Shown: positions 10,782 through 19,977 of the stretch, one piece after another
How the letters are laid out: the number at the start of each line of letters is the position of its first letter
How positions within the stretch are numbered: position 1 is the first letter of the stretch
Translations under genes and position numbers: made by a program
Notes under the pieces: model-generated
The model's input: only the letters and a program-made list of their open reading frames with translations
Databases searched by the model: none
What the model was told of the DNA's origin: nothing
NCBI GenBank assembly: GCA_009778475.1
Contig: WRJS01000030.1
Coordinates: 1 to 34,136, forward strand
Length of the DNA stretch: 34,136 bases
Origin: Kiritimatiellota bacterium
GTDB taxonomy: Bacteria > Verrucomicrobiota > Kiritimatiellia > RFP12 > UBA1067
Reading direction: 5' to 3'

Positions 10782-12668
10782 TTATAGATACCGCACGACG
10801 GCGAGCGGCTGGCCTTTCGTGACGGCGGTGCCGTGCTCGACAAGGAACTGCACGACGGCCAGCGGCTTGTCGGCCTTGATCTGGTTGAAGAGCTTCATGG
10901 CCTCGACGATGCAGATCGGCTCGCCGGCCTTGACGCTTGCGCCCTCGTCCGCAAGGTTCGGCTTGCCGGGGCCGGGCGAGCGGTAGAACGTGCCGCTGAG
11001 CGGCGCGTTGACCGTCGGGCCGGAGACGGCGGCCTTTTTCTCTTCTGGAGGGCGAGCGTCCTCGCGAGCCGCCGCCGTTTCGATTGCGTCCGTTTGCAAT
11101 CGGATGCGGTCGAAGCCTCCGACGATGCCGCCGTTGCTCAGCCGCGAGAAGAGGTGCAGCACGAGCTGACCGATCTCCGCGTGCTGCGCGTTGCCCGCCT
11201 CCTGCGCGGCTGGGGCGGGGGCTTCCGCAGGTGCGGGTGCGCTCGCCTTCTGGCTCTCGAGGTCGGCGGGGATGGGGTCGCGCTGGCCCTCGGCGGCGGC
11301 ACGCCACTTGAAGTAGCCCAAGGCGACTTCAGGGAACATGCAGTAGGAGAGGATGTCTTCCTCCTTCTCGATGAGCGCGGGGTCGAGCTCGGCGGCGGCG
11401 GCGGCGAGACCGGGCTTGAGCAGGTCCGCCGGGCGGCAGGTGATGGGCTTCTCGCCGCCAAGGATTTTCTTGGCGAGCTTGGCGTCCACGGGCGCGGGCG
11501 GGCGACCATACAAACCCTTGATGTAGTTGCGCGTCTCCTGCGTGACCATCTCGTAGCGTTTGCCGGCCAGCACGTTCAGCACGGCCTGCACGCCGACGAT
11601 CTGGCTGGTGGGCGTGACGAGCGGGGGGTAGCCCATGTCGGCGCGGGTGCGGGGCAGCTCGGCCATGACCTCGGGGAGGCGGTCGAGCGCGTCCTGCTGC
11701 TGGAGCTGGGAGCGCAGGTTGGAGATCATGCCGCCGGGGATGTGGTGCTCCAGCACGCCCGCGTCGATGAGCTCGCCGAGACCCGCCGAGGGCTCGCGCA
11801 AGGCCTTGACCTTGCGGAAGTGCTCGTTCTCCTGCGCGACCTTGGCGTGGTCGATGCCCGTGTCGTAGCCCTCGGCCTCCAGCATGGCGACCATGGTCTC
11901 GGCGGGCGGCTGGGAAGAGAACCCGGCCATGGCGGAGACGGCGGTGTCGATCGCGCCCGCGCCGGCCTTCACCGCCGCCATATACATCGTGGCGGCCATG
12001 CCGCTGGTCATGTGCGAGTGGACCTGCACGGGGATTTTGACGCTCCTCACCAAGGCCGTCACCAGCTCCGTGGCCGCGGCGGGCGAGAGGATGCCGGCCA
12101 TGTCCTTGATGCAGATGGAGTCCGCGCCCATGTCCTCCTGCTCCTTGGCGACGGCCACGAAGTTCGCGACCGTGTGGACGGGGCTGTAGGTGTAGCTGAT
12201 GGTGCCCTGCGCGTGGCCGCCGTATTTCTTGACCGCGCGGATGGCGCACGCCAGATTGCGGTTGTCGTTCAGCGCGTCGAAGATGCGGAAGATGTCCATG
12301 CCGTTCTCGCACGCCACGGCCACGCAACGCTCGAGAATGTCGTCGGGGTAGTGCCTGTAGCCCAAGGCGTTCTGACCGCGCAGGAGCATCTGCAACGGGG
12401 TCCGTTTCGCGACGGCCTTGATCTGGCGCAGGCGTTCCCACGGGTTTTCGCGCAGGAAGCGCAGGCACACGTCGAACGTCGCCCCGCCCCAGCATTCGAG
12501 CGAGTAGTAACCCGCGCCGTCCACCGCCTCCGCAATCGCGAGGATGTCGTCCGTGCGCATCCGCGTCGCCCACAGCGACTGGTGCGCATCGCGCAGCGTG
12601 GTGTCGGTGATTCTCACACGGGGCTTCACGGCCGCGGCCGCCTTTTTTGCATCTGTCTTTCTTGCCAT
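10782..12668 (-). CDS. Pyruvate carboxylase subunit B / oxaloacetate decarboxylase alpha-type carboxyltransferase with biotinyl domain
   Basis: The 628-aa protein starts MARKTDAKK at the ATG at 12668, chosen because the promoter at 12698-12726 puts the transcript start about 22 nt upstream; a TTG at 12686 would leave almost no leader. Residues about 18-300 are the HMGL-like TIM barrel of the carboxyltransferase (ITDTTLRDAHQSLWATRMRT, GADSICIKDMAG, VQVHSHMTSGM with the metal-binding His pair). A conserved carboxylase domain and an Ala/Pro linker follow. The biotinyl domain ends VEAMKLFNQI with the biotin Lys at residue 592, 36 from the end. It moves CO2 between biotin and pyruvate/oxaloacetate. 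The biotinyl domain (LSGTFYRSPGPGKP) looks more like acetyl-CoA carboxylase AccB than usual OadA. No biotin carboxylase, OadB or OadG lies nearby, so PycB versus OadA cannot be settled here. A dispersed repeat fragment is embedded in the linker (11046-11070). Confidence 0.9.
   Translation of the reverse strand: MARKTDAKKAAAAVKPRVRITDTTLRDAHQSLWATRMRTDDILAIAEAVDGAGYYSLECWGGATFDVCLRFLRENPWERLRQIKAVAKRTPLQMLLRGQNALGYRHYPDDILERCVAVACENGMDIFRIFDALNDNRNLACAIRAVKKYGGHAQGTISYTYSPVHTVANFVAVAKEQEDMGADSICIKDMAGILSPAAATELVTALVRSVKIPVQVHSHMTSGMAATMYMAAVKAGAGAIDTAVSAMAGFSSQPPAETMVAMLEAEGYDTGIDHAKVAQENEHFRKVKALREPSAGLGELIDAGVLEHHIPGGMISNLRSQLQQQDALDRLPEVMAELPRTRADMGYPPLVTPTSQIVGVQAVLNVLAGKRYEMVTQETRNYIKGLYGRPPAPVDAKLAKKILGGEKPITCRPADLLKPGLAAAAAELDPALIEKEEDILSYCMFPEVALGYFKWRAAAEGQRDPIPADLESQKASAPAPAEAPAPAAQEAGNAQHAEIGQLVLHLFSRLSNGGIVGGFDRIRLQTDAIETAAAREDARPPEEKKAAVSGPTVNAPLSGTFYRSPGPGKPNLADEGASVKAGEPICIVEAMKLFNQIKADKPLAVVQFLVEHGTAVTKGQPLAVVRYL
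11046..11070 (-). repeat. Fragment of the 14884-15075 element embedded in frame in the carboxylase gene
   Basis: On the minus strand these 25 bases match 15019-15043 (plus strand) at 24 of 25 positions; the shared core begins GGCTCGCGAGGACG and ends TCGCCCTCCA. They are translated as AREDARPP in the linker before the biotinyl domain, where an insertion would be tolerated. Confidence 0.65.
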
Positions 12669-12697
12669 AATCCCTCTGGTCTCCAAAAGAAGCGAAC

Positions 12698-14883: not shown

Positions 14884-15075
14884 AGCTCGTGTCCTGTAAA
14901 ATACAGATGACGGGACAGGGGATTAGCCTATTTGGATGGCGTGATATGGAGGGCGAGACAGGGGTCCCCATTTGCGCGGCGTGCGGTCAATGGGGCAGGA
15001 AACCGCAATGTGTCTAACGGCTCGCGAGGACGTTCGCCCTCCATCCTGAAATCTGTATTTTACAGGACACTAGCT
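14884..15075. mobile_element. MITE-like foldback element (192 bp)
   Basis: The ends are 25-bp inverted repeats (14884-14908 and 15051-15075) with one mismatch, sharing the core GTGTCCTGTAAAATACAGAT. Nested inside are an 11-bp perfect pair, ATGGAGGGCGA (14946-14956) and TCGCCCTCCAT (15034-15044), and a CCCCATT/AATGGGG pair, so the whole unit can fold into one long hairpin. It has no transposase frame. Relatives occur at 11046-11070, 13203-13242 and 18625-18645. It fills much of the 416-bp gap between tRNA-His and the solute-binding protein gene. The rest of that gap is AT-rich tRNA promoter DNA and the short repeats near 15084-15147. Confidence 0.7.
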
Positions 15076-17849: not shown

Positions 17850-17913
17850 CTTTAACCGCAATGGACACTGTTGTGCCTATTGTGAAAACCATTGTGCCTG
17901 TTGTGGTTAAAAT
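17850..17913. repeat. Palindromic dispersed repeat, copy 2
   Basis: The ends are TTTAACCGCAATGGACAC and, inverted, TGTGGTTAAA, with CCTATTGTGAAAACCATTGTG inside as in the copy at 1877-1983. It sits just after the DUF1097-like gene, where its hairpin could act as a 3' end. Confidence 0.7.
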
Positions 17914-18624: not shown

Positions 18625-18645
18625 ATCTGTATTTCACAAGACACT
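18625..18645 (+). repeat. Solo terminal repeat related to the 14884-15075 element
   Basis: ATCTGTATTT, one variant base, then ACA and GACACT match the right terminal repeat at 15051-15071 with two differences. It lies in the 217-bp divergent gap upstream of the exosortase gene, with no partner end nearby. Confidence 0.5.
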
Positions 18646-18695: not shown

Positions 18696-19208
18696 ATGAC
18701 TGATGGAAAACACATTCGGCGCGGCGACACCGTTGCCTTGCTGGTGAGCGGCGGCGTGACGCTTGCCGTGTGTTGGCTGACGCGCACGCTGGCGGATGCC
18801 GTCATCGTGCCACTCTTTTGCCGCGCCCCCGCCGAGGTTGCGGCGCGGTATTACAATGCCGCGCTTGAAAAGCCGGGACTGGTTTTTGCTGTGCATGGCA
18901 CGGTGTTTGAAGTGGCGCGGTCGTGTGCGGCGACGGATTTCTTCTCGATGGTGACGGGGCTGTTGACATACCTGTGCATGAGCAAACGCTCCGCCGCGTT
19001 CGCAATCGCCGTCCTCCCGCTCGCGTGGTGCGTCACGATTGCCGCCAACACGATGCGCCTCATCTTCCTCGTCCCCGCGACGGCGTGGATACATCACGCG
19101 CTCCCCGAAAAAGCGTATGCCGCCAGCCACCAAGCCATTGGGACGCTCATCTTCTTAACATCATTCATCATCCTCTGGGAAGGGGTCCGTCATGCCATAC
19201 GACATTAA
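18696..19208 (+). CDS. Exosortase, XrtK-like
   Basis: The 170-aa protein starts at the ATG at 18696 (MTDGKHIRRG); the frame is open upstream, but that part looks noncoding. It has about five membrane segments and the exosortase/archaeosortase triad: Cys77 in ARSCAATDFFSM, Arg121 in AANTMRLIFL and His145 in AASHQAIGTLIF. These enzymes cut a C-terminal tripartite signal of secreted proteins at the inner membrane, like sortases. The short length and the neighbouring MSEP-CTERM-like gene fit the XrtK subgroup, which is thought to be dedicated to one partner. Its stop overlaps the start of the RAYT frame by 17 nt. The ribosome site is weak. Exosortase identity is quite sure, the K subgroup less so. 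Confidence 0.75.
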   Translation: MTDGKHIRRGDTVALLVSGGVTLAVCWLTRTLADAVIVPLFCRAPAEVAARYYNAALEKPGLVFAVHGTVFEVARSCAATDFFSMVTGLLTYLCMSKRSAAFAIAVLPLAWCVTIAANTMRLIFLVPATAWIHHALPEKAYAASHQAIGTLIFLTSFIILWEGVRHAIRH

Positions 19209-19977
19209 CGCAAATGCCGGGAGCGCAGGGCTTCCGCCCTGCAAAACGAGCGAGGAAGGGCTTCCGCCCGGCAATATCAACGAGGCAGGGCAGAAGCCCT
19301 GCGCTCCCGGCACTTGCGCTCCCGGCATTTGCGCTCCCGGCACTTGCGCTCCCGGCACGTGCGCTCCCGGCACGTGCGCTCTCGGTAGGTGGTACTCACG
19401 CGGTTATCTGCCGCATCGCGATGAAATGCACCTTACCCAATCGCTGACATTTCGGCTTGCCGATTCACTGCCCCAAGAAAAACTCCGCCAACTGGAAGAG
19501 GAGTTGAGAAGCATCCCCGCCGAAAAGCAAGACGCGTACCGACGGATTCAAATCGAGAACTGGGTTGACACAAGCATGGGGTGTTGCGCGTTGCGGCACG
19601 CTGCGCTTGCGGAGGTCGTTGAACACGCCCTTTGTTCCCATGACGGTACCCGTTATCATCTGCTTGCATGGTGCGTCATGCCCAACCATGTGCATGTGCT
19701 GATTAAGCCGCTGGTTGAGATGGCAACAATCACGAGGTCGTGGAAAGGCTACAGCGGGCACTGGGCGATGGCGCACAACGCGGAGTTGGGGCTTGGGATT
19801 TTCGGGGAAACCTTGTGGCAACGCGAGACGTGGGATCGCTACATGAGAGATGAGAAGCATTTGCACGACACCGTTGCGTATATCCATAACAACCCCGTGA
19901 AAGCGGGGCTTTGCGGAAGGGCGGAAGAATGGCGCTGGTCAAGCGCATGGAAATGGCGGAACGATGGAAAGGAATAA
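19192..19977 (+). CDS. REP-associated tyrosine transposase (RAYT, TnpA_REP family)
   Basis: The 261-aa frame has the Y1 HUH core: His166-Val-His168 in MPNHVHVLIK, and the catalytic Tyr230 in VAYIHNNPVKAGL, preceded by FGETLWQRETWDRYMRDEKHL and followed by WRWSSAWK. RAYTs cut and join single-stranded REP hairpins and are usually single-copy domesticated relatives of IS200/IS605. The family normally begins near RGYLPHRDE. Here the first 65 residues are translated REP DNA (CKTSEEGLPPG, then five copies of CAPGT). AAGGGG lies 6 nt before the ATG at 19192, so this start is plausible and coupled to the exosortase stop. REP palindromes flank it on both sides (19216-19311, 20015-20110). Confidence 0.9.
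   Translation: MPYDINANAGSAGLPPCKTSEEGLPPGNINEAGQKPCAPGTCAPGICAPGTCAPGTCAPGTCALGRWYSRGYLPHRDEMHLTQSLTFRLADSLPQEKLRQLEEELRSIPAEKQDAYRRIQIENWVDTSMGCCALRHAALAEVVEHALCSHDGTRYHLLAWCVMPNHVHVLIKPLVEMATITRSWKGYSGHWAMAHNAELGLGIFGETLWQRETWDRYMRDEKHLHDTVAYIHNNPVKAGLCGRAEEWRWSSAWKWRNDGKE
19216..19311. repeat. REP pair A, left of and inside the RAYT frame
   Basis: GCCGGGAGCGCAGGG...CCCTGC (19216-19242) and its inverted partner (19285-19311) flank a smaller GGGCTTCCGCCC hairpin. Together they form a BIME-like module. It is translated as part of the RAYT N-terminus. Confidence 0.85.
19298..19386 (+). repeat. 15-bp tandem repeat encoding CAPGT
   Basis: Five to six units of the form TGCGCTCCCGGCACT, derived from the REP head, run in the RAYT frame and encode CAPG(T/I) repeats. 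The period is a codon multiple, so copy-number change would keep the frame. Confidence 0.8.

Follow-up and report, generated by a model that had tools for sequence, protein, structure and literature searches.

A probable MITE-like repeat family with CTAG-like borders and REP-containing interiors in a Kiritimatiellota genome

The foldback at positions 14884-15075 (192 bp) of the window, that is, of the whole 34,136-nucleotide stretch analysed here (contig WRJS01000030.1 of the Kiritimatiellota bacterium assembly GCA_009778475.1), is best read as a MITE-like element moved in trans at CTAG-like targets and carrying an interior built from REP (repetitive extragenic palindrome) modules, and we consider this reading likely. 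The stretch would be one copy of a non-autonomous family whose terminal inverted repeats are 19 bp long (TGTCCTGTAAAATACAGAT) and which inserts at CTAG-like sites with duplication of 4 bp. Movement would probably depend on a DDE-type transposase acting in trans, either lost or missing from the 91 per cent complete assembly. The interior would have been assembled from older REP modules in varying number (REP-A; in other copies also REP-B), so that both the ends and the REPs contribute pairing to the fold. On this reading, the genome would have undergone a species-restricted burst of a MITE-like element packaging older REP arrays.

Structure of the element in the window

The sequence-only reading had described pairs of 25, 11 and 7 bp that fold the entire 192 bp, and all of them are present at the claimed places. 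In the outer arms (14884-14908 and 15051-15075), 24 of the 25 bases are paired (96%), and the arms extend without gaps to 32 nt at 88 per cent; the inner pair (14946-14956 and 15034-15044, 11 nt) and the central pair (14966-14972 and 14989-14995, 7 nt) are exact. Folding energies lie far below those of shuffled sequences: -88.7 kcal/mol for the plus strand as RNA (z -6.1; none of 200 shuffles equals it), -83.6 kcal/mol for the minus strand as RNA (z -7.9) and -50.4 kcal/mol as DNA (z -7.7). The claimed extent of the element has to be reduced, however. Conservation between copies ends sharply four bases beyond the terminal repeat, and the outermost bases, including an AGCT/AGCT pair, therefore belong to the flank. 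The features of this copy are as follows.

14890-15069, plus strand: mobile-element copy proper, 180 bp, A end on the left and B end on the right, delimited by conservation across 124 ends and by full-length relatives
14890-14908, plus strand: left terminal inverted repeat, A-type, exact TGTCCTGTAAAATACAGAT
15051-15069, minus strand: right terminal inverted repeat, B-type, exact TGTCCTGTAAAATACAGAT
14886-14889, plus strand: left target 4-mer, CTCG, which departs from CTAG at one base
15070-15073, plus strand: right target 4-mer CTAG, one base different from the left 4-mer
14967-14994, plus strand: central hairpin module CCCATT...AATGGG; the fetched DNA has 56 such places when up to 3 mismatches are allowed
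15018-15042, minus strand: REP-A module GGAGGGCGAACGTCCTCGCGAGCCG, one change from the consensus

The 11-bp inner pair derives from the REP module (GGAGGGCGAG... / ...CTCGCCCTCC), which occurs independently elsewhere; this copy contains REP-A only, without REP-B.

A structured RNA gene had been offered as the alternative, and a transcribed regulatory hairpin conserved because of its structure would belong to the same explanation. The fold is indeed very stable on either strand, and the copy has a solute-binding-protein gene on one side and tRNA-His on the other, each encoded on the minus strand, so that read-through is possible. Against this, Rfam gave no match except the neighbouring tRNA-His, which also removes a tRNA or another known RNA from consideration, and neither a terminator-like site around the copy nor a minus-strand promoter-like site was found. 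The copies are truncated at many points. Arm mismatches number 32 within copies against 30.0 expected between copies (p = 0.80); arms from one copy thus resemble each other no more than arms from different copies do, and pairing is not kept by compensating change. Co-varying base pairs between copies, which would characterize a structured RNA, were not found. The RNA alternative has gained no support, and we regard it as very improbable.

Copy number and distribution

The genome to which the window belongs comprises 3.97 Mb in 208 contigs and is 91 per cent complete. With up to 3 mismatches allowed, the 19-bp end is found in it 154 times and the reversed control not at all; a similarity search with the element, in which 40 of 281 candidates were scored, gave at least 76 matches. 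The sequence-only reading had proposed such a genome-wide search and named a single occurrence with no related ends as the outcome that would speak against a mobile element; the terminal repeat proves instead to be multi-copy, matched 4-bp flanks are in excess, and one copy lies in a gene with an uninterrupted paralogue (see below). A chance single palindrome is ruled out by the 154 ends.

As a dispersed multi-copy family, these repeats resemble bacterial MITEs, which carry terminal inverted repeats, have no coding capacity and measure about 50-500 bp. The 21 two-ended copies are 79-341 bp long and cannot, at this length, hold a transposase gene.

At up to 2 mismatches, the end occurs 140 times in its own genome, is absent from one genome of the same genus (72% complete) and matches once each in eight of 344 other genomes of the class; control matches occurred in two genomes, and the matches elsewhere in the class are chance-level. 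Extended by two bases, the exact end has no match in genome_contigs, a set that may omit near relatives of the window genome. The end has no match in viral contigs, and the element has none in 72,556 plasmid or 50,697 phage records. At the tRNA-His locus of the same-genus genome the element is absent, but gene order differs on both sides and the locus provides no clean empty site. The family is nearly absent elsewhere in the class and, among the genomes examined, restricted to one species.

Ends, interiors and REP modules

A total of 124 ends were aligned within 232 kb of fetched DNA (231,626 positions). Conservation covers the 4-mer outside the terminal repeat (C 0.92, T 0.81, A 0.85, G 0.96) and does not extend to the base beyond it. 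CTAG precedes 76 of the 124 ends, CGAG 13 and CTCG eight, the rest having other 4-mers; the background is 144 CTAG per 231,626 positions.

Beyond the 4-mer, the flank is near random over the 124 ends, which places most copies in different DNA. This argues against a passive repeat whose copies multiplied, without transposition, through recombination and through duplication of the DNA around them. The copies on contigs C28 and C75 do have flanks in common, which means that a locus duplication produced at least one pair of copies; many copies are also joined to other dispersed repeats where modules meet, as such spread would allow. As an account of the whole family, we find passive spread highly unlikely.

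Two types of end are distinguished by what follows the terminal repeat, GACGR in A ends and TTCACG in B ends. Of the 21 two-ended copies, 20 were scored as having one A and one B end and one as BB; a copy on C10 was among those scored BA, but its second end reads GTCACG, which brings it nearer to BB. A separate count of end types, made with loose patterns, put at least two copies with another interior into the A class.

Two REP modules were recognized: REP-A (GGAGGGCGAGCGTCCYCGCGAGCCG) and REP-B (GGAGCGCAGGGCTTCCGCCCTGC), the latter only in copies other than that of the window. The fetched DNA contains 123 and 46 of them, respectively, at 2 mismatches. Genome-wide there are 330 REP-A units, and the module is present in 24 of 114 genomes of the taxonomic family, the window genome included, so it is older and more widespread than the element. 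The interior REP-A units are hairpins of the GTAG/GGAG-tagged kind typical of REPs and BIMEs, present as modules and not as element ends. Some interiors have no match to REP-A, REP-B or the core (C52, 79 bp; C21 and C49, 103 bp each), and at C120:3211-3298 (88 bp) family ends surround an unrelated interior. Since the ends are common and the interiors differ, comparison of the copies suggests that the ends are the mobile signal of the family.

Six loci (L023, L025, L036, L042, L044 and L110) have elements that run, at a module border, directly into other dispersed repeats (ATTGGGACACAAAACC... and GAGACGGATAATCATCCGTCTC...). These fusions make the genome a mosaic of several palindromic repeat families.

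Flanking duplications and an insertion within a gene

For target-site duplications, which the sequence-only reading had recommended looking for, the evidence is mixed. Of the 21 two-ended copies, 12 have the same 4-mer on the left and on the right (p = 0.014 after re-dealing the 4-mers in 20,000 trials), and 71 of 84 flanking bases match (p = 0.028). Exact matches other than CTAG are only two, CTGG on C28 and CGAG on C108 (p = 0.05). The two 4-mers are unequal in the remaining nine copies, that of the window included (CTCG/CTAG), and on C31 (CGAG/CTCG) and C120 (CTCG/CGAG) the variants are inverted, not direct.

The clearest single case for a 4-bp duplication is the copy at C28:11421-11569 (L041), which lies inside a membrane-protein gene and has CTGG on each side; with the insert removed, the gene encodes 120 residues. 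When the gene is read with a single CTGG, its product aligns without a gap at the insertion site with an uninterrupted paralogue on C26 (MFVTLVAY against MFLTAIAF); 59 of 104 residues are identical in an alignment that spans the insertion point, the match past this point being short. Comparison of the two genes thus fits a 4-bp duplication. The insert adds 153 bp, leaves the frame open and is predicted to add 51 residues. An in-frame copy within a gene is reminiscent of the Rickettsia palindromic elements, as far as these are described in the available part of PMC10969869.

Single-ended copies

When ends were paired with partners at most 700 bp away and at up to 5 edits, 30 two-ended stretches (one on C160 counted twice, overlapping) and 73 single ends were obtained, 24 of the latter with less than 300 bp to look in; most copies thus have one end. 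A narrower tally, leaving out copies with less than 250 bp inward or with a partner at up to 3 edits, comprises 59 single-ended copies: the B end remains in 48 and the A end in 11, the A class including two ends with another interior (C50 and C101:10614) and the B class a few TTCC interiors. Break points are scattered along the element.

Deletion accounts for at least one such copy. On C75, the right flank and the CTGG border are the same as on C28, and the left half of the element is missing together with most of the gene, so the deletion reached into the flank. Copies of QMITE2 of Coxiella burnetii that have lost about 40 bases at one end are also mentioned in the available part of PMC10969869.

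The excess of B ends is not predicted by cut-and-paste transposition. It could possibly result from loss through REP-rich sequence or from a one-ended process. Copying from a fixed B end to an arbitrary stop, with the other end variable, would explain why 48 of 59 single-ended copies have kept B; if true, this would be a new mode of spread for a MITE-like element, with a mechanism unlike that of ordinary MITEs. We consider such one-ended spread improbable; the skewed loss of ends is in any case a testable oddity.

Search for a mobilizing enzyme

The sequence-only reading had suggested a MITE moved in trans. The MITE part of this suggestion stands on the 154 ends, the matched 4-bp flanks and the copy within a gene; the trans-acting transposase was sought and not found. 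The fetched DNA covers 133 of the 154 ends (121 in a main set, which has three further ends at 4 mismatches, and 12 in additional stretches). Apart from an IS1595-type gene beside the copy on C4, no transposase was recognized by eye among the inward sequences listed, those of the ends between C47 and C73 being covered in part. No autonomous element sharing the ends was found in the 91 per cent complete assembly (133 of 154 ends fetched), in plasmids, in phages or in viral contigs.

Several candidate partners were rejected. The only protein of the assembly matching PF00665 (rve), on C104, is IS481-like (136.8 bits, below the cut-off of 224) and is followed by an ORF that appears, by eye, to encode an ATPase; the inverted repeats surrounding it differ from those of the family, and the 4.7 kb searched around it contain no family end at up to 6 mismatches. 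An IS1595-type gene on C4 is an adjacent insertion, apparently with a different end of its own. Two ends 4.6 kb apart on C31 enclose a long unrelated ORF and no transposase recognizable by eye, and contig C50, which begins at an end, has only further repeats and no recognized transposase.

IS481, IS5-group and IS701 elements prefer CTAG- or YTAR-like targets, and the TGT...ACA ends of the element resemble those of IS481 or IS3. A CTAG-like 4-bp target is common to these groups and to the family described here, but the assembly encodes no protein matching PF01609 or PF13546. Assignment to IS481, IS5 or IS701 would draw on generally known target preferences only. The available part of PMC8024623 gives no CTAG consensus for IS701.

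The REP modules of the interior raise the alternative of a REP- or BIME-derived element spread by a Y1 tyrosine transposase, either a RAYT or a relative of the TIRYT/TIRtron enzymes, the long ends then being a TIRYT-type repeat. The window itself encodes a RAYT, 4 kb from the element (19192-19977, plus strand; NF047646, 80.2 bits against a cut-off of 80), with inverted REP-B pairs on both sides (19220-19242/19285-19307 and 20019-20041/20084-20106). Its nearest named relatives belong to mixed phyla, the best being from a MAG labelled Betaproteobacteria (70% identity). REP-B units are inserted in some other copies of the element, and the genome has seven Y1_Tnp matches, six of them above the cut-off. 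REP dimers within long palindromes and Y1 genes flanked by terminal inverted repeats have been reported (available part of PMC3733652).

Other observations do not fit a Y1 enzyme. The window copy is without REP-B, and copies without any REP carry identical ends. A REP/BIME system would have the same unit around its RAYT, and a REP-A pair flanks none of the eight transposase stretches scanned. In the stretches fetched at the seven Y1 matches, a family end occurs only near the RAYT of the window, as one lone degenerate end at 18625 and not as a flanking pair. Matched 4-bp flanks are in excess and the C28 copy fits a 4-bp duplication, whereas Y1 enzymes, to our knowledge, are not expected to duplicate their targets. 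Spread by a Y1 transposase is thus unlikely in our judgement, though it is the alternative to which we give most weight.

The lone end near the RAYT (18625-18643, minus strand) has 2 mismatches and no REP interior; its inner sequence (TTCC...) resembles that of lone ends on C7, C13 and C139.

Relation to known repeat families

REP-carrying MITEs have already been published; the statements on them here follow the available parts of the sources cited. A close precedent is QMITE2 of C. burnetii, a MITE of 150-190 bp with terminal inverted repeats and a GTAG REP (PMC5896051). Like the present family, it has a REP inside, copies that have lost one end and resemble REPs, and no transposase (PMC5896051, PMC10969869). 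The direct repeats of QMITE2 are 7-11 nt long and variable in sequence, whereas the putative duplication here is 4 bp and CTAG-like; and in place of the GTAG REP there are GGAG-type REPs, of which a copy may contain several units of two kinds.

BrickBuilt of Porphyromonas gingivalis also has inverted ends (leader and tail) around a variable number of internal repeats, and both ends are present in only four of 19 copies (PMC4596501). Its internal units are 23-nt tandem repeats and not palindromic REPs, its terminal inverted repeats resemble those of the IS5 family, and it is always intergenic, whereas one copy here lies within a gene (PMC4596501). BIMEs and REPs with RAYT transposases (PMC3733652, PMC2817692) share with the present family the alternating REP modules, a nearby RAYT flanked by REPs of its own and palindromic DNA around REPs (PMC3733652). 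They differ in that the outer ends described here are found without REPs as well, and the CTAG-like 4-mers next to these ends tend to match.

Because QMITE2, BrickBuilt and REP-dimer palindromes are published, the present family is an addition to the known small repeats. It did not appear in literature searches on REPs in the phylum or on REPs within MITEs, and its absence is claimed within that scope only. Its own features are the CTAG-like 4-bp border, the two kinds of GGAG-type REP, the restriction to one species among the genomes examined and the skewed loss of ends.

Other repeats in the window

A 42-bp repeat at 17871-17912 is found at more than 15 places in the same-genus genome and therefore belongs to another repeat family. 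An exact REP-A lies at 11047-11071, within an open carboxylase gene (10782-12686, minus strand) and before the biotin domain; the stretch of the same-genus genome that matches this region of the gene is 25 nt shorter.
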